Below are positions 7,992 through 21,452 of a DNA stretch of 60,014 nucleotides, piece after piece. A program made the position numbers and the translations under genes. The DNA lies in contig CAIWTJ010000222.1 of NCBI GenBank assembly GCA_903915535.1, positions 1 to 60,014 of the forward strand, read 5' to 3'. How positions within the stretch are numbered: position 1 is the first letter of the stretch; every line of letters starts with the position of its first letter. This DNA comes from Enhydrobacter aerosaccus (GTDB lineage: Bacteria; Pseudomonadota; Alphaproteobacteria; Reyranellales; Reyranellaceae). The notes under the pieces were generated by a model. That model was given only the letters and a program-made list of their open reading frames with translations. It made no database searches and was not told the DNA's origin.

Positions 7992-9071
7992 ATGACCAGT
8001 TCCGATGCCCTGCCGCTGCAGCGCTTCACCATCGTCGAAGTGAACGACCGGGACGTGCCGCTCTGCCTCCGGCTCGCGTCGTCGCTAGCGGGAAAGATCA
8101 CGGCCGACCTCGGCGCCACCGTGCTCAAGATCGAGCCGCCCGGCGGCGATCCGGTGCGACGTGCGCCGCCGCTGCTACCGCAGGGCGAGAGTGCGCTGTT
8201 TCAGTTCCTGAACACGTCCAAGCGCTCGCTGGTGCTCGACCTCGCTGGCGCCGACGGCCGCGCGGCACTCGCCCGGCTCCTCGAAACGGCCGACGCGGTC
8301 CTGTTCGAGGAGCCCGCGTCGGTGGCAGTGCTGGCGCGCGGCGGCAAGGCGACAGCAATCGAGATCGCGGCCTTCCCGGTCGAGATGGATGCGGCCTCCC
8401 GGCCGGTGAGCGAGTTCACCATCCTGGCGCTGGGCGGCCTGCTGCACATGGTGGGCGAGCCCGAGCGCAAGCCCCTGCGGCTGGGCGGCCATCAGGCGTC
8501 CTACGCCGCGGGCCTCACCGCTTTCACCGGCCTCGCCGCCGCTCTCGCCGCGCGCGATGCGGGCCACGCCGCGCCGGCCGTGCGCGTGTCGCTGGCCGAA
8601 GTCATGCAGTGGGTGAACTGGAAGGCGGCCTCCGGTGCCGAAGCGTCGGGCACCTCGCCCGGGCGCGAGGGCAAGGCGTCGGAATTCCAGATCGTTCCCT
8701 GCAGGGATGGCCATGTCGCCGTCGTCTACACCGCCACGCAATGGCCGCAGACGCGCGCGCTGATCGGCGATCCGCGTCTCGCCGACCCGAAGTACAACAC
8801 GCGCGCCGGCCGCCGCCAGCACGTGGCCGAGATCTACACGATCATGACGCCGTGGTTCGCGGACAAGACGCGCGCCGAGATCCAGAAGACCGCGCAGGCC
8901 AAGGGTGTGCCGTTCGGGCCGATCTTCTCGCCGGTCGAACTGCTCGATACCGAGCAGTACGTCGCGCGCGGCTTCCTGGCGACCCTGGGCAAGTACCGTG
9001 TGCCGCAACTTCCCGTGCAATGGAACGGCCGCTCGTTCGCTCCGCGCCCGGCGCCGGAGCTGGCGACATGA
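7992..9071 (+). CDS. CaiB/BaiF class III CoA-transferase-like protein, probably lacking the catalytic Asp
   Basis: 359 residues. Typical N-terminal family blocks are present: ITADLGATVLKIEPPGGDPV and FLNTSKRSLVLDL. In this family the Asp that forms the acyl anhydride sits in a D-x-x-x-G context after the GEP...P segment; here the stretch is GGHQASYAAG and no Asp is seen. It overlaps by ATGA with a second CoA-transferase that does keep an Asp there. I infer that the two form a heteromeric enzyme with one catalytic subunit; the organic-acid substrate is unknown. Confidence 0.85.
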   Translation: MTSSDALPLQRFTIVEVNDRDVPLCLRLASSLAGKITADLGATVLKIEPPGGDPVRRAPPLLPQGESALFQFLNTSKRSLVLDLAGADGRAALARLLETADAVLFEEPASVAVLARGGKATAIEIAAFPVEMDAASRPVSEFTILALGGLLHMVGEPERKPLRLGGHQASYAAGLTAFTGLAAALAARDAGHAAPAVRVSLAEVMQWVNWKAASGAEASGTSPGREGKASEFQIVPCRDGHVAVVYTATQWPQTRALIGDPRLADPKYNTRAGRRQHVAEIYTIMTPWFADKTRAEIQKTAQAKGVPFGPIFSPVELLDTEQYVARGFLATLGKYRVPQLPVQWNGRSFAPRPAPELAT

Positions 9072-10210
9072 GCGGCACCAGAAAGGGAACGAGGCCCCTC
9101 ACCGGCGTGCGCGTCCTCGATTTCGGACTGCTGACGGCGGGCGCCAACACCTCGGCCATGCTGGCCGACCTGGGCGCCGACGTGATCAAGATCGAGTCGG
9201 GCGCCTACCTCGATCCCTTCCGCGTCGTCGGCAAGCCCGACGACAACGACGGCTGGTGGAACCGCTCGCCGCAGTTCCGCTTCACCAACCGCAACAAGCG
9301 CGGCCTAGCCCTCAACCTCAAGGACAAGGACGGCCAGCGCGTCATCCGCGAGCTGGCGGCCAAGTGCGACGTGGTGGTCGAGAACTTCCGCCGCGGCGTG
9401 CTCGATCGCGCGGGCCTGGGCTACCAGGACCTGAAGGCGATCAACCCGCGTATCGTCTTCGCCGCCATCTCGAGCCAGGGCGACACCGGTCCGGAGCGCA
9501 TGAACGTCTCGTTTGGCTCCACGCTCGACGCCACCTCCGGCATCGCCGCCCTCACCGGCTACGAGGGCGAGGAACCGCGCATCTCGGGCATGGACGTGAA
9601 CTATCCCGACCAGATCGTCTCGCTGTTCGCGACCGGCATGGTGATCACCGCCGTCATGGAGGCGCGCCGCACCGGCCAGGGCTGCTTCCTCGATTTCTCG
9701 CAGCGCGAGGTCGCCTCCTTCACCCTCGGCGAGGAAATCCTGGCCGCGTCCGCCCATCCGACCCGCACGCTGGCGCGGCAAGGCAACCGGCAGGAGGGCG
9801 TGGCGCAGCAGGATACATATAGGTGTCGTGACGGACGCTGGATCGCCGTTACGCTTGCGATGCCCGACGCCACGCTGCCCGATTTCTGCGCGGGCCGTGA
9901 CAGCAACGCCGCCGTTGCGGCCCTGCTCGAAAAGGGCATCGCCGCCGCGCCCTGCAACGAGGGGCTCGACCTGCTGCGCGACAGGAGTCTCGCCGGTGTC
10001 ACCGTCGTGCGCGACGAGAAGGGTGGCCTGGTGAAGGGACTGCCCTATCGTCTGGACGGAAAGGGCATCGCGATCGACCGTGCCGCACCCGATCTCGGAC
10101 AGCATACCGAAGAGGTGCTGCGCGAGTTGCTGGGCTACGATGACGCTGCGGTCGCCAAGCTGGCCGAAAAGGGCGTCACCTCGACGGTGCCCAACGTGGG
10201 AGAGGTCTGA
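9068..10210 (+). CDS. CaiB/BaiF class III CoA-transferase
   Basis: 380 residues from ATG at 9068, which overlaps the stop of the preceding paralogue. Family blocks are GVRVLDFG, LADLGADVIKIES, NRNKRGLALNL and VVENFRRGVLDRAGLGY. The putative catalytic Asp is in NYPDQIVS at about residue 181. Class III transferases move CoA between carboxylic acids through an enzyme-bound aspartyl anhydride. The C-terminal third is compact. It is followed after 2 bp by nitronate monooxygenase, so the pair and the next genes look like one operon. Confidence 0.9.
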   Translation: MSGTRKGTRPLTGVRVLDFGLLTAGANTSAMLADLGADVIKIESGAYLDPFRVVGKPDDNDGWWNRSPQFRFTNRNKRGLALNLKDKDGQRVIRELAAKCDVVVENFRRGVLDRAGLGYQDLKAINPRIVFAAISSQGDTGPERMNVSFGSTLDATSGIAALTGYEGEEPRISGMDVNYPDQIVSLFATGMVITAVMEARRTGQGCFLDFSQREVASFTLGEEILAASAHPTRTLARQGNRQEGVAQQDTYRCRDGRWIAVTLAMPDATLPDFCAGRDSNAAVAALLEKGIAAAPCNEGLDLLRDRSLAGVTVVRDEKGGLVKGLPYRLDGKGIAIDRAAPDLGQHTEEVLRELLGYDDAAVAKLAEKGVTSTVPNVGEV

Positions 10211-10212
10211 TC

Positions 10213-11169
10213 ATGGCGCGCGCCGAAGTCCAGAAGCTGATCGATCGCATGGCGATTCCCGTGATCGCCGCGCCGATGTTCCTCGTTTCCAATCCCGCGC
10301 TGACGCTCGCCTGCTGCGGCGAAGGCATCATGGGCAGCTTCCCCGCGCACGGCACGCGCAGCCGCGAGGAATTCCAGGCCTGGCTCGACGAAATGGAAGT
10401 CGGCATCAAGCGCCTCGAGGATGCCGGCAAGAAGCCCGCGCCCTGGGCCGTGAACCTCGTCGTGCACGCGTCCAACCCGCGCTACCAGGGCGACCTCGAA
10501 CTGGTCGAGAAATACAAGGTGCCCGTGGTGCTGACGTCGAAGGGCGCGCCCGGCGACGCGATCAAGCGCATTCACGGCTGGGGCGCGGTCGCCCTGCACG
10601 ACATCGCCAATTATCGCCACGCAGAGAAGGCGCTGGAAGCGGAGGTCGATGGCGTGATCGCCGTGGCCGGCGGCGCGGGCGGCCATACGGGCACAATCAA
10701 TCCCTTCGCGCTGATGAACGAGGTGCGCCAGTTGGGCGATCACTTCGCCGTCATCCTGGCGGGCAGCATCACCACCGGCCGCGACGTGCTGGCCGCGCAG
10801 GCGATGGGTGCGGATGCGGCCTACATCGGCACCCGCTTCATCGCCACGCGCGAGGCGATGGCGGTCGACGCGCACAAGAAGATGATCCTGGACACACGGG
10901 CGACCGACGTCTTCCTCACCTCCTCGATCGACGGCGCGCCGGCCAACTGGCTGACACCCAGTCTCACCGCGGCCGGCATCGATCTCGATGTGCTGCGCAC
11001 GACGCTGCCCAGCAAGGTCGTGGCGGCGCAGGAAAACAAGAAGAAGTGGAAGGACATCTACACGGCGGGCCACGGCGTCGGGAACATCGGCGACATTCCC
11101 ACGGCGGCAGAGCTCTGCCGCCGCCTGATCGATCAATACAGGGAAGCGAAGGCGAAAGTCGCCGCGTGA
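10213..11169 (+). CDS. Nitronate monooxygenase / 2-nitropropane dioxygenase-like FMN enzyme
   Basis: 318 residues. TIM-barrel FMN motifs include IAVAGGAGGHTG and ILAGSITTGRDVLAAQAMGA, with the conserved end-of-barrel GADAAYIGTRF. In the family the enzyme oxidises nitronates to carbonyl compounds and nitrite; several relatives reduce enoyl-CoA or quinones instead. It lies 2 bp after a CoA-transferase and overlaps by GTGA with the ABC transporter ATPase, a context equally compatible with nitro-compound detoxification or with an acyl-CoA role. Confidence 0.87.
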   Translation: MARAEVQKLIDRMAIPVIAAPMFLVSNPALTLACCGEGIMGSFPAHGTRSREEFQAWLDEMEVGIKRLEDAGKKPAPWAVNLVVHASNPRYQGDLELVEKYKVPVVLTSKGAPGDAIKRIHGWGAVALHDIANYRHAEKALEAEVDGVIAVAGGAGGHTGTINPFALMNEVRQLGDHFAVILAGSITTGRDVLAAQAMGADAAYIGTRFIATREAMAVDAHKKMILDTRATDVFLTSSIDGAPANWLTPSLTAAGIDLDVLRTTLPSKVVAAQENKKKWKDIYTAGHGVGNIGDIPTAAELCRRLIDQYREAKAKVAA

Positions 11170-11957
11170 TCAAAATCGCCATCGACAAGCTCGCGAAATC
11201 CTTCGGCGACGATGACCGGCGCACGGTCGCGCTGCACGATTTCGATCTGTCGATCGACGACGGCGAATTCGTCTGCATCGTGGGTCCGAGCGGCTGCGGC
11301 AAGACCACCGTTCTGCGCATCGTGGCCGGCCTCGAGACACCGACGTCCGGCACCGTCACGATCGCGCCCGGGAGCGCCACCGGCCATCCGCAGAATGCCA
11401 TGGTTTTCCAGGAGCACGGGCTCTTCCCGTGGATGACGGTCGTCGACAACGTGGCCTACAGCCTCGAGATGCGCGGCATCGGCAAGCGCGAGCGCCGCGA
11501 ACAAGTGATGCCGTTCCTGGAGAAAATCGGCCTCTCCCGCTTCCACAAGCACTACCCGCGCGATCTGTCGGGCGGCATGCGCCAGAGGGTGAGCCTTGCG
11601 CGGGCCTTCGTGGCCGATCCCGAAATCCTGCTGATGGACGAGCCGTTCGCCGCCCTCGATGCGCAGAACAAGCTGATCCTGCAGGAAGAGCTGCTCCGGA
11701 TCTGGGAGGGCTCGGCCAAGACGGTGCTGTTCATCACCCATGGCATCGACGAGGCGATCGCGCTCGGCGACCGCATCGTGGTCATGACGGCGCAGCCCGG
11801 CCGCATCAAGGAGATCGTGCCGATCGACTTCCCGCGGCCGCGCTCGGTGGCGGAGCTGCGCGCCGATCCGCGATTCGGTGCGCTGGAACTCTCGATCTGG
11901 CGCATGCTGGAGGACGAAGTGCGCACGGCGCGCCGGCAGGAAGAGGCCGCATCATGA
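11166..11957 (+). CDS. NitT/TauT-family ABC transporter ATP-binding protein
   Basis: 263 residues from GTG at 11166, overlapping the previous stop. Walker A GPSGCGKTT, Q-loop MVFQEHGLFPW, signature LSGGMRQRVSLA, Walker B ILLMDEPFAALD and the switch histidine in FITHGIDEA are all intact. The LFPWMTVVDNV segment is typical of SsuB/TauB/NrtD-type ATPases importing nitrate, sulfonates, cyanate or thiamine precursors. The ATPase, permease and binding protein are consecutive, so the importer is complete. Confidence 0.93.
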   Translation: MIKIAIDKLAKSFGDDDRRTVALHDFDLSIDDGEFVCIVGPSGCGKTTVLRIVAGLETPTSGTVTIAPGSATGHPQNAMVFQEHGLFPWMTVVDNVAYSLEMRGIGKRERREQVMPFLEKIGLSRFHKHYPRDLSGGMRQRVSLARAFVADPEILLMDEPFAALDAQNKLILQEELLRIWEGSAKTVLFITHGIDEAIALGDRIVVMTAQPGRIKEIVPIDFPRPRSVAELRADPRFGALELSIWRMLEDEVRTARRQEEAAS

Positions 11958-12712
11958 AGCGCGTCAACCAGGAACGCGCACTCACGATCCTGTCGCCCGT
12001 GGCGGCATTGATCGTCTGGCAGCTTGCGTCGAATGCCGGCCTGGTCAACCAGCGCTACGTGCCCTCGCCGCTTTCCATCGCGGTGGCCGGCTGGGACCTG
12101 GCCCTCTCGGGAGAGCTCGCGCAGCATATCGGCGCCAGCCTGCGCCGGCTGGTCGTCGGCTTCGTGCTGGGCGCCGTGCCGGGCGTGTTCATCGGCATGG
12201 TGATGGGCCTCAACCGCTGGGTCCGCGCCGCCCTCGACCCGCTGGTGGCCGCCCTCTATCCGATCCCCAAGATCGCCCTCCTGCCCCTGCTGATGCTGGT
12301 GTTCGGCCTGGGCGACGGCTCCAAGGTAGTCGTGGTGGCGATGTCGGTGCTGTTCCTGACCATTATCAACATCACGGTGGGTGTGCTTCAGCTCGACAAG
12401 ATCTACTTCGATGTGGCGCGCAATTACGGCACGCCCTGGCCCAAGCTCTTCCGGCGGGTGATCCTGCCCGGCGCGCTCCCCACCATCCTGGCAGGCCTGC
12501 GCATCAGCCTCGGCGTCTCCTTGGTGGTGCTGGTGGGCGCCGAGTTCGTCGCCTCCCAGTCCGGCATCGGCTACCTGATCTGGTCGTCGTGGCAAACGCT
12601 GATGGTCGAGCAGATGTTCGTTGGCATCATTGTGATCACCATCCTCGGCGTCCTTTCGACGCTTTTCCTCCACGAATGCGAGCGGCTTCTGGTACCGTGG
12701 CGCCGTGATTAG
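11954..12712 (+). CDS. NitT/TauT-family ABC transporter permease
   Basis: 252 residues from ATG at 11954 (ATGA overlap with the ATPase gene). About six membrane segments are visible, and the EAA-like cytoplasmic loop (NYGTPWPKLFRRVILPGALP) that docks the ATPase is clear. It belongs to the SsuC/TauC/NrtB group. It forms the inner-membrane channel with the ATPase upstream and the periplasmic binding protein 10 bp downstream. Confidence 0.93.
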   Translation: MKRVNQERALTILSPVAALIVWQLASNAGLVNQRYVPSPLSIAVAGWDLALSGELAQHIGASLRRLVVGFVLGAVPGVFIGMVMGLNRWVRAALDPLVAALYPIPKIALLPLLMLVFGLGDGSKVVVVAMSVLFLTIINITVGVLQLDKIYFDVARNYGTPWPKLFRRVILPGALPTILAGLRISLGVSLVVLVGAEFVASQSGIGYLIWSSWQTLMVEQMFVGIIVITILGVLSTLFLHECERLLVPWRRD

Positions 12713-12722
12713 GAGGTGTCCG

Positions 12723-13721
12723 ATGCGGAAGTCGATACTCGTCGCGCTATGCGGCCTGTGGAGTGCGACGGCCGCCGCCGAGCCGGTCAGGATCGGCGAT
12801 CTCGGCATCCTGGCCGATGCGCCCTTCTATATCGCGATCGAGAAGGGCTACTTCGCCGCCGAAGGCGTCGAGGTGAAGCTCGAACGTTTCCAATCGGCGG
12901 CGCAGGCCACCGCACCGCTGTCGCAGAACCAGGTGCAGGTCGTGGGCGGCGGCGTCAGCGCCGGACTCTACAATGCCTTCGCCCGCGACTGGCCGGTCCG
13001 CATCGTCATGGCGCGCACCCGCGACATGCCGGGCTTCTCCAGCGACACGCTGGTGATGCGCAACGACCTCAAGGGCAAGATCAAGTCGGCCAAGGACCTC
13101 AAGGGCCGCGTCATCGCGGTCAACGCCCCGTCGTCGGTCCTGCACTACATGCTGGGCAAGCTCATGGAGTCCGAGGGCCTCACCATCGAGGACGTGCAAA
13201 CCGTCAGCATGGCCTGGCCCAGCATGGGGCCCGGCATGGAATCCCACGCGATCGACGGCGGCACCGTGGTCGAGCCGTTCGCCGAGCTGTTCAGCCAGAA
13301 GAACTATTCCTTCCCGTTCCGCCGCGCCGCCGACTTCATGAAGCCGCCGCTCGAAGTCTCGGTGATGCTCTACAGCAAGGAATGGACGGACAAGAGTCCG
13401 GACCAGGCCAAGGCCTTCAGCGTGGCCTTCATGAAGGGCGTGCGCGACTACTACGACGCCATGAAGGGCGGCCCCAAGCGCGCCGAAGTCATCCAGATCT
13501 GCATCAAGTACACCAGCCTCAAGGACAAGGCCCTGTACGACAAGATGCAGTGGAGCTACATGGACCCCAATGGCGAGATTTCGCTGGAAGGCCTCGCCGA
13601 CCAGCAAGAGTGGTATGCCAAGCAGGGGGTGGTGGCCAAGAAGGCCAGCCTGCAAGGTATGGTCGATCGCCGCTTCCTCGACTACGCCCTGCAGAAGCTG
13701 GGCAAGGTCGACGTCAAATAG
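12723..13721 (+). CDS. NMT1/THI5-like ABC transporter substrate-binding protein
   Basis: 332 residues. I choose ATG at 12723 because GGAGGTG precedes it by 6 bp and it gives a proper signal peptide (MRKSILVALCGLWSATAAAEP); a start at 12705 would add a polar extension. APFYIAIEKGYFAAEGVEV is the hallmark of the NMT1/SsuA/NrtA group, which binds pyrimidines, sulfonates, nitrate or related small molecules. It is the ligand-binding part of the importer encoded just upstream; the Rieske oxygenase 15 bp downstream suggests that the ligand may be the substrate it oxidises. Confidence 0.9.
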   Translation: MRKSILVALCGLWSATAAAEPVRIGDLGILADAPFYIAIEKGYFAAEGVEVKLERFQSAAQATAPLSQNQVQVVGGGVSAGLYNAFARDWPVRIVMARTRDMPGFSSDTLVMRNDLKGKIKSAKDLKGRVIAVNAPSSVLHYMLGKLMESEGLTIEDVQTVSMAWPSMGPGMESHAIDGGTVVEPFAELFSQKNYSFPFRRAADFMKPPLEVSVMLYSKEWTDKSPDQAKAFSVAFMKGVRDYYDAMKGGPKRAEVIQICIKYTSLKDKALYDKMQWSYMDPNGEISLEGLADQQEWYAKQGVVAKKASLQGMVDRRFLDYALQKLGKVDVK

Positions 13722-13736: not shown

Positions 13737-15023
13737 ATGGCCGAACCATCATCCGTCGTTCGTCTTTCCGCCCGGGCCGAGGATTGCCTGCGCACAGGAC
13801 CGGGCACGCCAGCCGGCCGCTACCTGCGCCAGTTCTGGCAGCCGATCTATCACTCGGTCGACCTGAAGGCCGGCAGCGCCGTCACGATCCGCATCATGAG
13901 CGAGGACTTCACGCTCTATCGCGGCGAGACCGGAACGCCGCACCTGGTCGATGCCAAATGCCCCCATCGTGGCACGCGCCTGTCGTCGGGCTGGATCGAG
14001 GGCGATGCGCTGCGCTGCTTCTATCACGGCTGGAAGTTCGATAGCGCCGGCGCCTGTGTCGAGCAGCCGGCCGAAGAGGACGCCTTCTGCCACAAGGTCT
14101 CGATCGCTTCCTATCCGTTGCGTGAATATCTCGGACTGGTCTTCGCCTTCCTCGGCACCGGCCAGCCGCCCGAGTTTCCGCTGCAGCCCGAGTTCGAGCA
14201 TTTCGACGGCATGGTCGAGATCGATTCCTACAGCCGCGATTGCAACTACTTCCAGAACCTCGAGAACGCGCTCGACATGAGCCACATCGGCTTCGTGCAC
14301 GGCGACAATGTCGCGATCTTCAAGGGCATCGGTCTCGGCCGCGCGCTCGACGCCGAGGAATCGGCGTGGGGCGTGACCTACGGCTTTACGCGACCCGACG
14401 GCCAGAAGCGCGTGCAGCAGTTCGGCATGCCCAATATCTTTTACCTGACGGCGCTGCCGACCGATCCCGAAGTGGGCTGGCAGGAATCGATGTTCTGGTG
14501 GGTGCCCATCGACGACGTGAGCCACATGCAGTTCAGCGTCCATCGCGTCCCCGCGCAGGGCGACGTGGCCGCGCGCATCCACGCCCGCCGCCAGGCCCGG
14601 CGCACCGACATCACCATCCGTCACCAGGATCTCGCGCGCGACGTGCTCGAGGGCCGAGTGTCGATGCGCGACATCGACAAGAGCAAGGTCGATCTCGTGC
14701 GCCTTCAGGATGACGTGGCGCAGGTCGGCCAGGGCTTGATCACCGACCGCGACGGCGAGCGGCTGGGCCGTGCCGACGTGGGCGTGATCGCCATCCGTCG
14801 CCTGTGGGAGCGCGAGCTCAACGCCTTCGCCGAAGGTCGCCCGCTCAAGCAGTGGAAGCGCGATGCCACGCTCGTGCCGCGTGCCTGGGGCCTCGCCGGC
14901 AATCCCGCGCAGATCGGCGGCAGCGGCACCGGCGGCACGAAGGTCGCCGAGGTGATCGACGTGCGCCCGCATGTCGAGATCGCGGTCCAGCTCAAGGCGC
15001 TGCACGCACCTCTGGATAAATGA
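13737..15023 (+). CDS. Rieske non-heme iron oxygenase, phthalate-dioxygenase-like alpha subunit
   Basis: 428 residues. The Rieske cluster ligands are in CPHRGT and CFYHGW (about residues 80 and 100), and the mononuclear iron site is NALDMSHIGFVHG (His, His) near residue 180. The order and size match the homotrimeric group that includes phthalate 4,5-dioxygenase and several N- or O-demethylases (for example vanillate and dicamba demethylase). No dedicated reductase or ferredoxin is adjacent. Its stop overlaps the M24 gene start by ATGA, and a class III (formaldehyde-type) alcohol dehydrogenase follows, which favours a demethylase role. That is an inference. Confidence 0.9.
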   Translation: MAEPSSVVRLSARAEDCLRTGPGTPAGRYLRQFWQPIYHSVDLKAGSAVTIRIMSEDFTLYRGETGTPHLVDAKCPHRGTRLSSGWIEGDALRCFYHGWKFDSAGACVEQPAEEDAFCHKVSIASYPLREYLGLVFAFLGTGQPPEFPLQPEFEHFDGMVEIDSYSRDCNYFQNLENALDMSHIGFVHGDNVAIFKGIGLGRALDAEESAWGVTYGFTRPDGQKRVQQFGMPNIFYLTALPTDPEVGWQESMFWWVPIDDVSHMQFSVHRVPAQGDVAARIHARRQARRTDITIRHQDLARDVLEGRVSMRDIDKSKVDLVRLQDDVAQVGQGLITDRDGERLGRADVGVIAIRRLWERELNAFAEGRPLKQWKRDATLVPRAWGLAGNPAQIGGSGTGGTKVAEVIDVRPHVEIAVQLKALHAPLDK

Positions 15024-16276
15024 GACCCGGCGGGAAGACACCGGAGGCCGGGCCGCAACTGACCCTGGCCGAACGCGACCGCCGTTACGCCGGCCTGCGC
15101 GCGCTGATGGAGACGCAGGGCTTCGACGCCATTGTCGTCGGCAGCTTCCAGGGCCGCGAGCGGCTCGAGTCCTACCTGATCGACGACTTCCTCGACTCAG
15201 TCGTCGTCCTGCCGCGCACAAGCGACCCCGTTCTGCTGGCCTTCGGCGGCTCGCGCATCAGCCGCATCTTCGAGAGCCAGCGCCGTGGCCACGATGTCTG
15301 GGTGCCCGACGTGCGCATGAGCGCCGGCGGCGCCAAGGTCGCCGAGGTGCTGAAAGAGCGCGGCCTTGCTCGCGGACGCATCGGGCTGGTCGGCTTCGGC
15401 CCCACCGCCCCTGGAGAGGCTGAGGGGCTGCTGCCGCTGGGCTTCCACACCAACTTCGTGAAGGCGCTCCCCGACGCCACGATCGGCGACTTCACCCTCG
15501 CCTTCACCGACTTCATGCTGGTGAAGAGCGCGCAGGAGATCGCGCTGCTGCGCTTTGCCGCGAAGGTGAGCGAAGAGGCCTGCAAGGTGATGATGGAGGT
15601 CTCGCGGCCCGGCGTCAGCGAGGCCTCGGTCTATGCCGACACGGTGCGCGAAATCCATCGCTGGGGCTGCGACCTGCGTTACCCCTTCTTCAGCCTTCAA
15701 TCGGGCAAGGATAATATCGGCTGGGGCGTGCCCCGCTGGAGCCTGCGCGCCGAGCCGCCCCGCATCCTGGAAGCGGGCGACCTGGTGCAGGCGGAGATCC
15801 ACACGATCTATGGCGGCGTCGAAGGTCAGGTGAACATGTCGGTCTGCCTCGATCCGGCGGACGACGTGGTGCATCGGCTCGAAGCGGTCGCGCGCCAATC
15901 CTATGAAGCCGGCCTCGCCGCGTTGAAGCCCGGCGTCACCTTCGCGTCGGTCGTCCACGCCATGGAGAAGCCGCTGGCAGAGGCCGGCTGCTGGAGCAAG
16001 ACACCGCTCCTCCACACCCTGACGTTCGGCTCGACCGGCTTCACGCCAGTCAACCGCGAGCAACTGAAAGGCACGCGCGACGAAGCGGTCGAGGGCGATG
16101 CAAAACCCGGCATCCGCCGCGGCGATCTTGTCCTGAAGGAAGGCATGAGCCTGGAGCTCGAGCCCAACGCCTGTCTCGGCATGGTGCGGGTGAATATCGG
16201 CGCCGGCGTGCTGGTGACGTCGCGCGGTGCGGAAGAGCTCAATTCACTCGCGACTCGGGTCCAGCACGTGCGCTAG
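15020..16276 (+). CDS. M24 pita-bread-fold protein (creatinase/Xaa-Pro aminopeptidase family) lacking canonical metal ligands
   Basis: 418 residues, ATGA overlap with the Rieske gene. An N-terminal creatinase-type domain (about 1-150) is followed by the pita-bread catalytic domain. The expected metal-binding Asp in GDLV-x-x-D-x-G reads GDLVQAEIH, the second Asp region reads GGVEGQVN, and the last Glu (RxE) reads VNIGAG; only LELEPN keeps a Glu. A dinuclear metal site is therefore unlikely. That resembles creatinase, which is metal-free and hydrolyses creatine to sarcosine and urea, but other non-peptidase members exist. Activity on a C-N bond is the best guess. Confidence 0.8.
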
Positions 16277-16302
16277 GCTCCCGCCATCAGGGAGACGCCA
16301 CA

Positions 16303-17415
16303 GTGAAGACAAAGGCAGCGGTCTGTTTCGAGGCCGGCAAGAACCTCGAGATCGAGATGGTCGACCTCGAAGGCCCCAAGTTCGGCGAAGTGCTGGTCGA
16401 GATCAAGGCGTCCGGCGTCTGCCACACCGACGAGTTCACCCGCTCGGGCGGCGATCCCGAAGGCCTCTTCCCCGTGATTTTTGGCCATGAGGGCGCGGGC
16501 GTCGTGGTCGATGTCGGCCCGGGCATCGTGTCGCTCAAGAAGGGCGACCACGTGATCCCGCTCTACACGCCCGAATGCCGCCAGTGCAAATCCTGCCTCT
16601 CGGGCAAGACCAACCTCTGCACGGCGATTCGCGGCACACAGGGCCAGGGCGTGATGCCCGACGGCACCTCGCGCTTCTCGCTGAAGGGCAGGAAGATCCA
16701 TCACTACATGGGCTGCTCGACCTTCTCGAACTACACGGTGCTGCCGGAGATTGCGCTCGCGAAGATCCGTCCCGACGCGCCGTTCGACAAGGTCTGCTAC
16801 ATCGGCTGCGGCGTGACCACCGGCATCGGCGCGGTGATCAACACTGCCAAGGTCCAGGCCGGCGACAACGTCGTGGTGTTCGGGCTCGGCGGCATCGGCC
16901 TCAACGTCCTGCAAGGGGCGCGCATGGTCGGCGCCAACATGATCGTGGGCGTCGACCTCAATCCCGATCGCGAGGCGCTCGGCCGCAAGTTCGGCATGAC
17001 GCATTTCGTCAATCCCAGGACTCTGGGCGACAAGGATCTCGTGGCCCATCTGGTCGAGCTGACCGATGGCGGCGCGGACTATTCCTTCGAATGCGTCGGC
17101 AGCACAAAGCTGATGCGCCAGGCGCTGGAGTGCTGCCATCGCGGCTGGGGCAAGTCGATCATTATCGGCGTCGCGGGCGCGGGACAGGAAATCTCGACAC
17201 GTCCGTTCCAGCTCGTCACCGGCCGCTCGTGGATGGGCACGGCCTTCGGCGGCGCCAAGGGCCGGCGCGACGTGCCGAAGATCGTCGACTGGTACATGGA
17301 CAAGAAGATCGACATCGATTCGCTGATCACCCACGTGATGCCGGTCGAGAAGATCAACGACGCGTTTCACCTGATGCACGAGGGCAAGTCGATCCGTTCG
17401 GTCGTCACCTTCTAG
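16303..17415 (+). CDS. frmA: Class III zinc alcohol dehydrogenase (S-(hydroxymethyl)glutathione dehydrogenase type)
   Basis: 370 residues from GTG at 16303. Catalytic zinc ligands are Cys in GVCHTDE and His-Glu in GHEGAG; the structural zinc lobe is [23 protein letters not shown] binds NAD. The segment [17 protein letters not shown] is characteristic of class III enzymes, which oxidise the glutathione adduct of formaldehyde (and reduce S-nitrosoglutathione). No S-formylglutathione hydrolase is adjacent; an MBL-fold hydrolase follows after 8 bp. A formaldehyde-releasing step upstream, such as Rieske demethylation, would explain its position. A -10-like GCTAGGCT lies about 25 bp upstream of the start. 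Confidence 0.9.
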
Positions 17416-17423
17416 GAGGCAGC

Positions 17424-18299
17424 ATGCGCGCCATCGGCAACGCCACCATCGAGAAAGTCGAGGAGATCTGCGGCGCAGGCTTCAAGCCCGGACGCATGTT
17501 CCCGAAGTTCAACCAGGAAGCCTTCGACGCGCAGAAGCACTGGATGGTGCCCGAGCATGTCGAGGCCGGCAGCGATCGGCTGGTCGGCTCCGTGCACACC
17601 TGGATCGTGCGCACGCCCAGGCACACCATCCTGATCGACACCTGCCTCGGCAATCACAAGGACCGGCACAATCCGGGCTGGAACAAGCTCAACACGCCCT
17701 TCATGGAGCGGCTGAACGCCTGCGGCTGTAGCCCTGAGTCGGTCGACTTCGTCATGTGCACGCACCTGCACGTCGACCACGTGGGCTGGAACACCAAGCT
17801 CGAGAACGGCCGCTGGGTGCCGACCTTTCCCAATGCCAAGTACCTCTTTGCCAAGCGCGAGTACGCGCACTGGGAGAAAGAGCACAAAACGCTAGGCGCG
17901 GAGACCAACGGCGGCTCGTTCGACGATTCGGTACTGCCCGTGGTCGAAGCGGGCAAGGCGGTCATGATCGACACCGACTACCAGGCCGATCCGCTGCTCA
18001 CCATCAAGGACTATCCCGGTCACACACCGGGCTCGATCGCGATCAACCTGAAGGACGGCGGCAAGAGCGCCTGCTTCTCGGGCGACATCATGCATCATCC
18101 CATCCAGGTCTATCATCCCGACTGGTCGAGCCAGTTCTGCTCGGACCAGGATCTATCGGCCAAGTCGCGCCGCAAGCTCCTCGAGGATTGCGTCGAGAGC
18201 AACGCGCTGCTCTGCCCCGCCCACTTCCCGGGTGCGAACGCGGGCTACATCAAGCGACGGGGCGAGTCCTTTGCCATCGACTGGGATGTCCGGAAATGA
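17424..18299 (+). CDS. MBL-fold metallo-hydrolase (AHL-lactonase-like group)
   Basis: 291 residues from ATG at 17424, with AGGAGG just upstream. No signal peptide. The zinc motif is THLHVDHVGWN (about residues 111-121), with GHTPGS, FSGDIMHHP and CPAHF supplying the other ligands, an arrangement typical of the lactonase/quorum-quenching-like MBL group. Following the class III dehydrogenase it could hydrolyse a thioester or lactone of the same pathway, in place of an FghA-type esterase. This role is inferred from position only. Confidence 0.87.
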   Translation: MRAIGNATIEKVEEICGAGFKPGRMFPKFNQEAFDAQKHWMVPEHVEAGSDRLVGSVHTWIVRTPRHTILIDTCLGNHKDRHNPGWNKLNTPFMERLNACGCSPESVDFVMCTHLHVDHVGWNTKLENGRWVPTFPNAKYLFAKREYAHWEKEHKTLGAETNGGSFDDSVLPVVEAGKAVMIDTDYQADPLLTIKDYPGHTPGSIAINLKDGGKSACFSGDIMHHPIQVYHPDWSSQFCSDQDLSAKSRRKLLEDCVESNALLCPAHFPGANAGYIKRRGESFAIDWDVRK

Positions 18300-18306
18300 A
18301 TAGCCC

Positions 18307-18411
18307 CGTCACCCTGAGCGTAGCGAAGCGGAGCCGAAGGGCCTGTGTTCGGCGGCCCCAAAAGGTCCCTCCGCTGCGCCGCGCTTCGCACGGCTTCGGT
18401 CGGGATGACGG
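18307..18411. repeat. REP-like inverted repeat
   Basis: The left arm begins CGTCACCCTGAGCG (18307) and runs through TAGCGAAGCGGAGCCGAAGG; the right arm, read on the minus strand from 18411, begins CGTCATCCCGACCGAAG and continues with GCGAAGCGCGG. Both belong to the same family and can fold into one imperfect hairpin of about 100 bp. It fills the 118 bp between the MBL-fold gene and the lactonase gene, where it may attenuate read-through. Confidence 0.7.
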
Positions 18412-18417
18412 TTCGTC

Positions 18418-19257
18418 ATGAAGCTCGAACCCTTCGTCGACGGCCTCTCCTTCGGCGAGGGCCCACGCTGGCACCAGGGCAAGCTCTGGTATTCGGACTT
18501 CTACGTCCATCAGGTCCGCACCGCCGACGAGAGCGGCAAGACGGAGACGATCGTGGAGGTGCCCGGCCGGCCGTCCGGCCTGGGCTGGCGCCCCGACGGC
18601 ACGATGCTGATCGTCAGCATGACCGACAAGCGGCTTATGCGTTTTGCCGACGGCAGGCTTTCGGTCGAGGCCGAGTTGGGCTCCATCGCCACCGGTCTCT
18701 GCAACGACATGATCGTCGACGCGAAGGGTCGTGCCTATGTCGGAAATTTCGGCTTCGACCGCCATGCCGGCGAGAAGCAGAGGCCCGCGGTGCTGGCCCG
18801 CGTCAATCCGGACGGCTCGGTGCATCGCGCGGCCGACGATCTGGCCTTCCCCAACGGCACGGTGATCACGCCCGATGGCAAGACGATGATCATCGGCGAG
18901 ACCATGGCCAAGCGCCTCACCGCCTTCGACATCGCGGTGGACGGCACTCTGTCCAACCGCCGCGTCTGGGCCGAGACAGCGAACTGCAATCCCGACGGCA
19001 TCTGCCTCGACGCCGAGGGCGGCATCTGGGTAACTGGCGCCTTCACGCACCACATGGTGCGCGTGCTCGAAGGCGGAAGGGTCACGCACGATCTAGATCT
19101 CGGCGAGCGAGCGGCCTACGCCTGCATGCTGGGCGGCAGGGATCGCCGCACGCTCTACGTCATCACCAATACCGGCAGCGGGCCGGACATGGCCAAGAAG
19201 CGCGACGGCCGCATCGAGACGATGCGGGTAGACGTGCCGGGCGCCGGACTGCCGTAA
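18418..19257 (+). CDS. SMP-30/gluconolactonase/LRE family lactonase
   Basis: 279 residues. The six-bladed propeller family is shown by LSFGEGPRWHQGKLWYSDF at the N-terminus (with the metal-binding Glu), a central CNDMIVDAKGRAYVGNFGF (Asn/Asp ligands) and CNPDGICLDAEGGIWV. Members hydrolyse sugar lactones or related esters with a divalent metal. It begins directly after the REP-like repeat and is followed after 10 bp by an SDR dehydrogenase, a natural pairing for a dehydrogenase-lactonase sequence of steps. Confidence 0.9.
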   Translation: MKLEPFVDGLSFGEGPRWHQGKLWYSDFYVHQVRTADESGKTETIVEVPGRPSGLGWRPDGTMLIVSMTDKRLMRFADGRLSVEAELGSIATGLCNDMIVDAKGRAYVGNFGFDRHAGEKQRPAVLARVNPDGSVHRAADDLAFPNGTVITPDGKTMIIGETMAKRLTAFDIAVDGTLSNRRVWAETANCNPDGICLDAEGGIWVTGAFTHHMVRVLEGGRVTHDLDLGERAAYACMLGGRDRRTLYVITNTGSGPDMAKKRDGRIETMRVDVPGAGLP

Positions 19258-19267
19258 GGGGGAAGCG

Positions 19268-20083
19268 ATGAAGGGACCTGAGGACGATCTTGGCCTTGCC
19301 GACAAGGTCGCCATCATTTCGGGTGGCGGCGCCAGGGACGACGGCATCGGCAATGGCCGCGCTGCCGCAATCCTGCTGGCGCGGGCCGGAACGAAGGTCG
19401 TGGTCTCTGACCTCGACGTGAAGCTCGCCGAGCGCACGGTCGAGATGATCAAGGCCGAGGGTGGCACCGCGATCGCCCAGGCCTGCGACGCCACGAAGGA
19501 AAGCGACTGCAAGCGGCTGGTCGATGCCGCGGTCGATCACTGGGGACGGCTCGACTTCCTCGACAACAACGTCGGCATCGGCAGCCGCGGGAGCGTGGTC
19601 GACGAGATGCCGGAGGAATACCGCCGTGTCATGCAGGTCAACGTCGAGACGATGTTCCTGCTCTCCAAGCATGCGATCCCGGCGATGATCAAGACGGCCA
19701 AGGGCGGCGCCATCGTGAACATCTCGTCGATCTCGGCGCTACGGCCGCGCGGCCTCACGACCTACACCGTCTCGAAGGCGGCCGTCATCGGCCTCACCCA
19801 GGCGATGGCGGTCGACCATGGCAAGGACAAGATCCGGGTCAACTGCATCTGCCCCGGCCCGATGTTCACGCCGATGGTCAATCGCGGCAACGGCATGAGC
19901 GAGGCCAACCGCGCCCAACGCGCCAAGGCCTCGGTTCTGAAGATCGAGGGTACCGGCTGGGACATCGGCCAGGGCGTGCGCTTCCTATTGAGCAACCACG
20001 CCCGCTACATCACCGGCCAGGTGCTGGTGATCGACGGCGGCGTGACCCTGCAGGGACCCGAACGCGACTCACAAGCTCAATAA
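19268..20083 (+). CDS. SDR-family oxidoreductase (paralogue 1)
   Basis: 271 residues. The cofactor loop is the extended GGGARDDGIGNGRA rather than the short TGxxxGxG; the catalytic Ser is in NISSIS and Tyr-Lys in YTVSK. The NAG motif reads NNVG. Asp after the second strand (VVSDLD) favours NAD(H). The same extended Gly loop and NNVG variant recur in the SDR at 20652, so the two are close relatives separated by the CMD gene. Likely a dehydrogenase or ketoreductase in the same pathway as the lactonase. Confidence 0.9.
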   Translation: MKGPEDDLGLADKVAIISGGGARDDGIGNGRAAAILLARAGTKVVVSDLDVKLAERTVEMIKAEGGTAIAQACDATKESDCKRLVDAAVDHWGRLDFLDNNVGIGSRGSVVDEMPEEYRRVMQVNVETMFLLSKHAIPAMIKTAKGGAIVNISSISALRPRGLTTYTVSKAAVIGLTQAMAVDHGKDKIRVNCICPGPMFTPMVNRGNGMSEANRAQRAKASVLKIEGTGWDIGQGVRFLLSNHARYITGQVLVIDGGVTLQGPERDSQAQ

Positions 20084-20095
20084 AGAGGAAACCCC

Positions 20096-20650
20096 ATGGC
20101 ACGCCTGCCCTACCTCAATCCCGAAGACCTGCCGCCCGAGCAGCGCGACCTGCTGAAGCGGCCGATCAACCTCACGCGCCTGTTGGTCAACTCTCCCGGC
20201 ATGGCGAAGGCCTTCCACACGGTCGGCGGCTACATTCGCAGCAAGAGCACGCTCAACCCCCGCCTGCGCGAACTGGCCATCCTCCAGGTCGGCTGGATGG
20301 AGAAGTCGGAGTACGAATTCACCCATCACGTGAAGATCGGCAAGGAATTCGGCGTCACCGACGAGGACATCCAGAACCTGTTCCTCGAGACCGAAGGCAA
20401 GCCCTCGACGCTCGAGCCGCTCGCCAAGGCGGTTCTGAAGGGCGCGCGCGAGATGGTGCGCGATCTGGCGATGTCCGACGCCACCTTCGCCGAAATCAAG
20501 ATGCAGCTGTCCAACGAGCACATGGTCGACCTCGTGGTCACAATCGCTTTCTATTGCGCCGTCGTGCGCGTGCTGGCGACGACCAAGATGGACAACGAGC
20601 CCCAGTACAAGGAAGTGCTGAAGCAATACCCCATTCCGGGAGTGACCTGA
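20096..20650 (+). CDS. Carboxymuconolactone decarboxylase/AhpD-like family protein
   Basis: 184 residues. The CMD fold segment RELAILQVGWMEKSEYEFTHHVKIGKE-like helix is seen at about residues 60-85, but without the CxxC of AhpD peroxidases, so it is the non-redox branch, with His-His near the expected active centre. Family members include gamma-carboxymuconolactone decarboxylase and many uncharacterised proteins. A GAGGAAA ribosome site precedes the ATG. Sandwiched between two related SDR genes (12 bp and 1 bp gaps), it is part of the same operon. Confidence 0.87.
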   Translation: MARLPYLNPEDLPPEQRDLLKRPINLTRLLVNSPGMAKAFHTVGGYIRSKSTLNPRLRELAILQVGWMEKSEYEFTHHVKIGKEFGVTDEDIQNLFLETEGKPSTLEPLAKAVLKGAREMVRDLAMSDATFAEIKMQLSNEHMVDLVVTIAFYCAVVRVLATTKMDNEPQYKEVLKQYPIPGVT

Positions 20651-20651
20651 C

Positions 20652-21452
20652 ATGCGCCTGAAAGACAAGGTGGCCATCGTCGTCGGTGCCGGCCAGAGCC
20701 CGGGCGAAGGCATGGGCAACGGCCGCGCTACCGCCCTCACCTTCGCGCGCGAGGGTGCCAAGGTAGTCTGCGTCGATCACAATCTTGCCTCCGCGCAGGA
20801 AACGGTCGACCTCATCGGCCAGAACCAGGGCACCGCCGTCGCCTTCAAGGCCGACGTGACGAAGAATGCCGAGCTCAAGGCCATGGTCGCCGACACCCAC
20901 GCTCGCTGGGGCCGTATCGACGTCCTGCACAACAACGTCGGCGTCTCGCTGTCCGGCGGCGATGCCGAACTGCTCGACATCACCGAGGAGGCCTTCGACC
21001 GTTGCGTGGCGATCAACCTCAAGAGCTGCATCTTCGCCGCCAAGCACGTGCTTCCGATCATGCGCGAACAGAACAGCGGCGTGATCATCAACATCTCGTC
21101 GATGGCCGTCATCACGACCTATCCCTACGTCGCCTACAAGGCGACCAAGTCCGCAATGATCTCCTTCACCGAGCAGCTCGCCTACCAGAACGCCAAGTAC
21201 GGCATCCGCGCCAACGTAATCCTGCCGGGCCTGATGAACACGCCGATGGCGGTCGACACCCGCGCGCGGACCTTCAAGAAGACCCGTGCCGAGGTCGAGG
21301 CCGAGCGCGATTCGCACGTGCCGCTGCGCAAGAAGATGGGCACCGGCTGGGATGTCGCGAATGCGGCACTTTTCCTCGCCTCGGACGAGGCAAACTTCAT
21401 CACCGGCGTCACGCTGCCCGTCGATGGCGGGGCGAGCGTGCGGCGGGGCTAA
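20652..21452 (+). CDS. SDR-family oxidoreductase (paralogue 2)
   Basis: 266 residues. Cofactor loop GAGQSPGEGMGNGRA, NNVG, catalytic Ser in NISSMA and YKATK triad, with VCVDHN suggesting NAD(H). It resembles the SDR at 19268 in its unusual long Gly loop and probably arose from it by duplication. Its stop codon overlaps the first bases of a sigma-54-type promoter for the following transporter, so it is probably the last gene of its own transcript. Confidence 0.9.
   Translation: MRLKDKVAIVVGAGQSPGEGMGNGRATALTFAREGAKVVCVDHNLASAQETVDLIGQNQGTAVAFKADVTKNAELKAMVADTHARWGRIDVLHNNVGVSLSGGDAELLDITEEAFDRCVAINLKSCIFAAKHVLPIMREQNSGVIINISSMAVITTYPYVAYKATKSAMISFTEQLAYQNAKYGIRANVILPGLMNTPMAVDTRARTFKKTRAEVEAERDSHVPLRKKMGTGWDVANAALFLASDEANFITGVTLPVDGGASVRRG

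Follow-up and report, generated by a model that had tools for sequence, protein, structure and literature searches.

Gene content of the locus

Here we analyzed a stretch of 60,014 nucleotides from Enhydrobacter aerosaccus (contig CAIWTJ010000222.1), called the window throughout and always meant at its full length, and within it four consecutive genes that encode a Rieske oxygenase, a protein of the M24 (creatinase) fold, a class III alcohol dehydrogenase (ADH) and a hydrolase of the metallo-beta-lactamase (MBL) fold. A sequence-only reading had joined these genes, which follow a NitT/TauT-type importer, into a single pathway of N- or O-demethylation. The open reading frames (ORFs) and family scans with the curated cut-offs of Pfam and NCBIfam confirmed the four genes, their positions, their names and the ATGA overlap that joins the Rieske gene (ending at 15023) to the M24 gene (starting at 15020). 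Homologues of the importer, Rieske, M24, ADH and MBL genes at the loci of six relatives (L021-L026) are 61-98% identical, and these genes are therefore not chance ORFs. The gene block extends past the reported four, with CaiB and NMO genes upstream and SMP30, SDR, CMD and SDR genes downstream.

The anatomy of this block is that of two modules. The importer, Rieske and M24 genes form one (hereafter the cassette), in which the Rieske and M24 genes are coupled and the M24 protein has at least three metal ligands and the creatinase histidine changed; the ADH and MBL genes belong to the other, a genus-wide operon. The single pathway consequently came apart into two units, the ADH gene being found near the Rieske-M24 pair in 5 of 17 other loci and only within the genus.

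Conservation of the Rieske-M24 pair

A profile search of contigs with an alignment of six M24 sequences, covering flanks of up to 10 kb and less at contig ends, identified 17 other loci, five of them in genus members and 12 elsewhere (among these L073, from another genus of the family), the M24 proteins of the 12 being 62-70% identical to that of the window. The Rieske gene lies directly upstream of the M24 gene in all 17, as had been supposed from the window, and this coupling spans Alphaproteobacteria, Betaproteobacteria and metagenome-assembled genomes (MAGs) of Eremiobacterota. The records are labelled Reyranella, Acetobacteraceae, Roseiarcaceae, and Enhydrobacter-, Asaia- and Rhodospirillales-labelled MAGs, together with Alcaligenaceae, Pusillimonas, Ramlibacter, Polaromonas and Eremiobacterota MAGs. 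In the Polaromonas MAG (L080, 8625-9962) only the C-terminal part of the Rieske protein is left, its front part being replaced by unrelated sequence that we judged by eye to be transposase-like.

The proposed link to the importer also held, since the three NitT importer genes accompany the pair in the genus and stand beside it in 4 of the 12 distant loci (L073, L078, L079 and L081, the last with a changed gene order). Pfam scans of 30 chosen neighboring proteins revealed other uptake receptors near the pair, namely TctC (L071, L077), Peripla_BP_6 (L075) and NMT1 types (L074, L075, L076), and a MarR regulator near at least 6 of the 12 distant loci (L071, L074, L075, L076, L077, L081). The MBL gene was found near the pair in 4 of the 17 loci, all five with the ADH gene being of the genus and the contig of the fifth stopping inside that gene, and the remaining 12 have neither ADH nor MBL within the flanking stretch examined. 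The supposed formaldehyde sink is hence not conserved with the oxygenase.

The resident dehydrogenase operon and its insertion slot

The ADH passes the curated equivalog model TIGR02818 (603.5 bits; cut-off 543.95). A class III ADH match was found in 54 of the 61 genomes of the genus, including all 41 near-complete ones; 51 matches exceed the cut-off, and the other three are either weaker or truncated where a contig ends. Among the 30 relatives' loci listed of these 54 matches, the MBL gene adjoins the ADH gene in every one, and the cassette is absent from 28, all of which have the NMO gene on the other side of the ADH. The order CaiB-CaiB-NMO-ADH-MBL-SMP30-SDR-CMD-SDR is that of the genus-wide operon. 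The NMO-ADH-MBL-SMP30 part recurs in a further genus of the same family (g4, L128).

The cassette occupies the gap between NMO and ADH, which measures 82-180 bp in 25 of the 28 cassette-free loci, 347 bp in L030, 1108 bp in L033 and 1048 bp in L053. In L033 (535-1383) and L053 (2700-3524) a gene for a VanY-type carboxypeptidase fills the slot, which takes unrelated inserts. What fills the slot in L030 (genome G045) is the start of the ABC ATPase (~57 residues) and then the end of the M24 gene, while ADH and MBL are intact; this looks like the deletion scar of a whole cassette, in one draft genome where an assembly error is possible. Because 28 of the 30 listed loci have ADH and MBL but no cassette, and in view of the scar and the other inserts, gene order alone does not make them the sink of the Rieske enzyme. 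The best reading takes ADH for the formaldehyde dehydrogenase resident in the genus and MBL for its neighbor in the operon, neither being dedicated to the cassette; the 12 pairs without ADH speak likewise against the dedicated sink that had been proposed. No second class III ADH besides the gene at 16303-17415 was found in the genome, where the next-best ADH-like proteins show 34-38% identity, and this approaches the different role for the enzyme that the sequence-only reading had named as telling against itself.

The features are collected in Table 1. In the gap between MBL and SMP30 (18300-18417) we noted by eye a stretch of the type CTGAGCG.AGCGAAG that recurs in the NMO-ADH gap of L027 and is possibly an interspersed repeat.

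Table 1. Features of the cassette and of the surrounding operon in the window.
Feature	Position	Strand	Basis and remarks
NitT/TauT-type ATP-binding cassette (ABC) ATPase (cassette)	11166..11957	+	ORF; named from sequence; homologue adjoining Rieske-M24 in genus and in L073, L078, L079, L081
ABC permease (cassette)	11954..12712	+	ORF; named from sequence; synteny in relatives
NMT1/SsuA-like substrate-binding protein	12723..13721	+	Pfam NMT1; alternative GTG start 12705
Rieske oxygenase	13737..15023	+	Pfam Rieske; closest solved chain a putative phthalate 4,5-dioxygenase
M24-fold protein, altered metal site	15020..16276	+	Pfam Peptidase_M24; Glu259 at EutD position 255
Class III ADH (glutathione (GSH)-dependent formaldehyde dehydrogenase)	16303..17415	+	TIGR02818; genus-wide operon, not cassette
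MBL-fold hydrolase	17424..18299	+	Lactamase_B; like AidB-type lactonase / organophosphorus hydrolase; genus-wide operon
Left part of genus-wide operon: two CaiB/BaiF-like CoA-transferases and NMO-like protein	7992..11169	+	CaiB pair named from sequence; synteny
NMO-like protein	10213-11169	+	Pfam NMO
Right part of genus-wide operon: SMP-30, SDR, CMD, SDR	18418..21452	+	Pfam SGL, adh_short_C2, CMD; synteny

The Rieske oxygenase and the importer

The Rieske domain was recognized with 74.7 bits (Pfam cut-off 20.3), and the closest solved chain is 7fhr, a putative phthalate 4,5-dioxygenase (E = 4.2e-41), followed by chains named only 'Rieske (2Fe-2S) domain protein' and, lower, by the demethylases NdmA and DdmC. 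The Rieske Cys/His set and the iron site made up of Asp180, His183 and His188 are intact in 17 of the 18 aligned sequences, that of the window included, the sole exception being the interrupted gene of L080. Two C-terminal domains missed their cut-offs, VanA_C of the demethylases with 23.4 bits over 28 residues (cut-off 23.5) and LigXa_C with 20.3 bits (cut-off 27). At the level of sequence, family and residue data do not separate ring hydroxylation from demethylation. No gene for a cognate reductase was detected among the scanned neighbors, and the genome's three NAD_binding_1 matches all lie on other contigs. The structure model of the Rieske protein, with a mean pLDDT of 49, was not used. 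Close relatives (E <= 1e-60) were found in 7 of 146 genomes including the window's own, six of the genus and one of another genus of the family.

The three importer genes lie directly upstream (about 11166-13721). The family scan covered, among them, the binding protein, which matches Pfam NMT1 with 75.3 bits (cut-off 20.5) and falls below the cut-off of SsuA_fam (72.1 versus 163.5 bits). Its nearest solved match is a taurine-binding protein (E = 1.8e-5), and its solved matches are weak as hints to a substrate.

The altered active site of the M24 protein

The M24 protein matches Peptidase_M24 with 59 bits (Pfam cut-off 23) and its structure was predicted with a mean pLDDT of 84.8. Comparison of this model with Foldseek and VIA-align returned the M24 (pita-bread) fold, with EutD (6yo9) at Z 33.8 and a root-mean-square deviation of 2.5 A over 355 residues, followed by a prolidase (5cde, Z 33.6) and creatinase (1chm, Z 30.1). 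Judged from the predicted structure, fold matches alone pick no function for the protein.

We therefore describe the residues as aligned with prolidase, a creatinase and EutD-type proteins. M24 metallopeptidases are presumed to bind their metal through Asp, Asp, His, Glu and Glu. In the prolidase alignment the two Asp positions hold E259 and Q270 and one Glu position holds G394, while E381 is kept; all 18 M24 sequences agree in these four residues and in G236. By this alignment at least three of the five metal ligands are changed, on which ground a metallopeptidase was rejected, and the protein may work without a metal. The creatinase histidine (chain position 231), which we take to be the catalytic His232, aligns with the invariant Gly236. 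The designation 'creatinase-like' thus applies to the fold alone, and a creatinase that releases urea was rejected on the absence of the catalytic histidine.

Glu259 aligns, through the relatives L119 and L120, with the glutamate at chain position 255 of EutD, a residue that we assume to be the catalytic nucleophile of this ectoine hydrolase. A 39% identical M24 relative on the Rhodococcus plasmid pRLCBG43 keeps the glutamate, and its neighbors are genes for XdhC/CoxI, MoaE, MoaA, MoaD, a CoA-transferase and a cyclase, a neighborhood that looks like a molybdenum-hydroxylase cluster. A review describes EutD as the ectoine hydrolase that opens the ring (PMC5924519); the passages of that paper considered here make no mention of its residue Glu255. 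More distant M24 relatives occur in other contexts, for example with a serine hydroxymethyltransferase and a major facilitator superfamily transporter in Proteus. On plasmid Mpl of Novosphingobium sp. PP1Y (L084, 6544-9218) two M24-like proteins stand in tandem, the first judged by eye and the second distantly related (28%) to the protein of the window.

Interpretation and alternatives

Taking the conservation of the loci and the active-site residues together, we lean, with modest confidence, toward a movable cassette of importer, Rieske oxygenase and M24 protein that abuts the resident ADH/MBL operon and serves import, hydroxylation and a probably metal-free C-N cleavage. The five genes would have been placed, as a transferable unit, between NMO and ADH of the genus-wide operon. 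The importer would take up a small solute, the Rieske enzyme would hydroxylate it with electrons from an unlinked reductase, and the M24 protein would cleave a C-N bond or open an N-containing ring of the hydroxylated product, probably as a metal-free hydrolase using Glu259 as EutD/DoeA would use Glu255. We infer the order of these steps, their chemistry, the independence from metal and the class of substrate. A wider form, in which phthalate-type Rieske enzymes hydroxylate an N-containing (hetero)cycle, metal-free M24 partners with a glutamate nucleophile open the ring and the importers are exchangeable, is an idea that we hold doubtful.

Several observations weigh against the cassette as an independent C-N cleaving unit. 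The sequence likeness to EutD is weak, TIGR02993 giving 28 bits where the cut-off is 613, and the structural scores of EutD (Z 33.8) and prolidase (33.6) are level, that of creatinase being near 30. Since the alignment gave no position for the histidine that would bind the metal, loss of the metal is not proven. We found no substrate for the pair and no link from it to a characterized pathway, and the ring-catabolism genes near it vary between loci, none being common to all in the scanned set. All six carriers in the genus (window, L021-L025) have the cassette in the same place before the ADH gene, and the ADH nucleotide tree, whose branch support was not read, splits them into two groups; the same site in two groups could mean that the cassette is kept there. 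In the window, L021 and L022 about 30 bp separate M24 from ADH, a distance at which co-transcription of the two genes is possible. A single insertion into one clade does not agree with the two groups, and we claim no history.

The alternative that survives best, and that we still regard as unlikely, has the Rieske enzyme hydroxylating the ring of a phthalate-like (hetero)aromatic carboxylate and the M24 protein attacking some other bond at a later step, or serving as a lyase in the manner of DddP, instead of as a C-N hydrolase. It would suit the identity of 7fhr and the genes of decarboxylase-like or meta-pathway type that some loci have nearby: UbiD (L076), 4-hydroxy-2-oxovalerate aldolase with acetaldehyde dehydrogenase (L071), and at L074 a class II aldolase that comes closest to 3,4-dihydroxyphthalate decarboxylase yet stays under the cut-off (121.7 of 200). 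The lyase DddP is itself among the M24 folds (Z 27.3), but its structural match is worse than that of EutD, and DddP needs metal ligands of the kind that is changed in the window's protein. Against this alternative also stands the lack of any single ring-catabolism gene shared by the loci in the scanned set.

The demethylation model, in which the Rieske enzyme removes N- or O-methyl groups, the class III ADH oxidizes the formaldehyde, the MBL protein hydrolyses S-formylglutathione and the M24 protein removes a further C-N group, is in our view quite improbable. It draws on the order and spacing of the genes in the window and their same placement in the six carriers, on the distant relationship of the oxygenase to NdmA and DdmC with VanA_C just under its cut-off, and on the distribution of the S-formylglutathione hydrolase FghA, for which a match was found in 14 of the 61 genus genomes and none in that of the window, 30 of the 41 near-complete ones having class III ADH without FghA. 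The MBL protein (Lactamase_B, 69.8 bits; cut-off 22.7) is nearer to lactonases and organophosphorus hydrolases than to glyoxalase II, and did not reach the curated score of the quorum-quenching lactonase AidB (70.3 bits; cut-off 360). That MBL may stand in for FghA has some support in the FghA distribution within the genus and in its place next to ADH at all 30 listed loci. Against this, ADH-MBL is retained in G030 and G042, which do carry FghA. Of 10 genomes from other genera 8 lack FghA, and of the ADH loci there 5 of 6 show neither MBL nor NMO up to 1.5 kb away; in G066 the MBL gene adjoins SMP30 and SDR, and no ADH lies inside that distance. Most of the family's examined genomes are without FghA, with MBL next to ADH or not. 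Relatives of the MBL protein occur elsewhere in the class in 42 of 385 genomes (E <= 1e-80), and among the 30 MBL loci listed only those of the genus have ADH within 1.5 kb. What tells against the model is that ADH and MBL persist in L030 after the apparent loss of the cassette, that most listed ADH loci and most pairs have one module without the other, and that the NMO-ADH slot holds the VanY gene in two relatives.

Two contig ends bear on the same enzymes. In G069, which belongs to a different genus, FghA immediately follows the terminal part of a class III ADH gene at a contig edge (L129, 1-1054). In G071 no class III ADH match was found (E <= 1e-100) and FghA lies ~70 bp from the apparent contig end (L130); we do not claim that the cassette works there without class III ADH, as this gene could be cut off at the contig end.

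Very improbable, finally, is a capture in which insertion put the resident dehydrogenase under cassette transcription and created a functional link in this lineage only: upstream of ADH, by eye, cassette-free relatives have TAGG.T (27/27; TAGGGT in L053) and TAGAC (23/27) and the seven carriers, scarred L030 included, keep TAGG.T and miss TAGAC, TAGG.T overlapping the M24 stop codon in the window, L021 and L022, but these motifs are promoter-like at best and a lead only, a sigma-70 consensus scan of the window gave 0 sites (shuffles 0.6), and L024 has a 678-bp M24-ADH gap with a TGGACT...TAGGCT pair.

If the wider form that we hold doubtful were true, the pair would represent a new oxygenate-then-hydrolyse route for breaking N-containing rings, widely moved between genomes. 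The locus also calls for caution with pathways read from gene order, as the cassette boundary cuts through the proposed operon. The Rieske oxygenase and the altered-site M24 protein make a small testable enzyme pair, and the binding proteins that travel with them could reveal the ligand. Among open-access papers we found none relevant to the pairing of Rieske and creatinase/M24 proteins or to ring opening by M24 proteins, which does not make the pair unpublished.

Comparison with known systems

Placing the M24 protein beside the ectoine hydrolases EutD/DoeA, the likeness lies in the highest VIA-align Z (tied with prolidase) and in the position of Glu259, whereas the TIGR02993 score is far below its cut-off and the window's protein is paired with a Rieske enzyme. 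Creatinase shares the fold and is likewise without the two Asp ligands in the alignment, but its catalytic histidine is replaced in all 18 aligned M24 sequences. The oxygenase resembles phthalate 4,5-dioxygenase-like and LigXa-type Rieske oxygenases in its closest solved relative and its intact Rieske and iron-site residues; it differs in that no reductase gene was seen in the window cluster and that LigXa_C and VanA_C both miss. The dehydrogenase, in turn, belongs by TIGR02818 with the GSH-dependent formaldehyde dehydrogenase operons, which we take to be those named frmAB or flhA-fghA, whereas its neighbor in the window is the MBL gene and not FghA.

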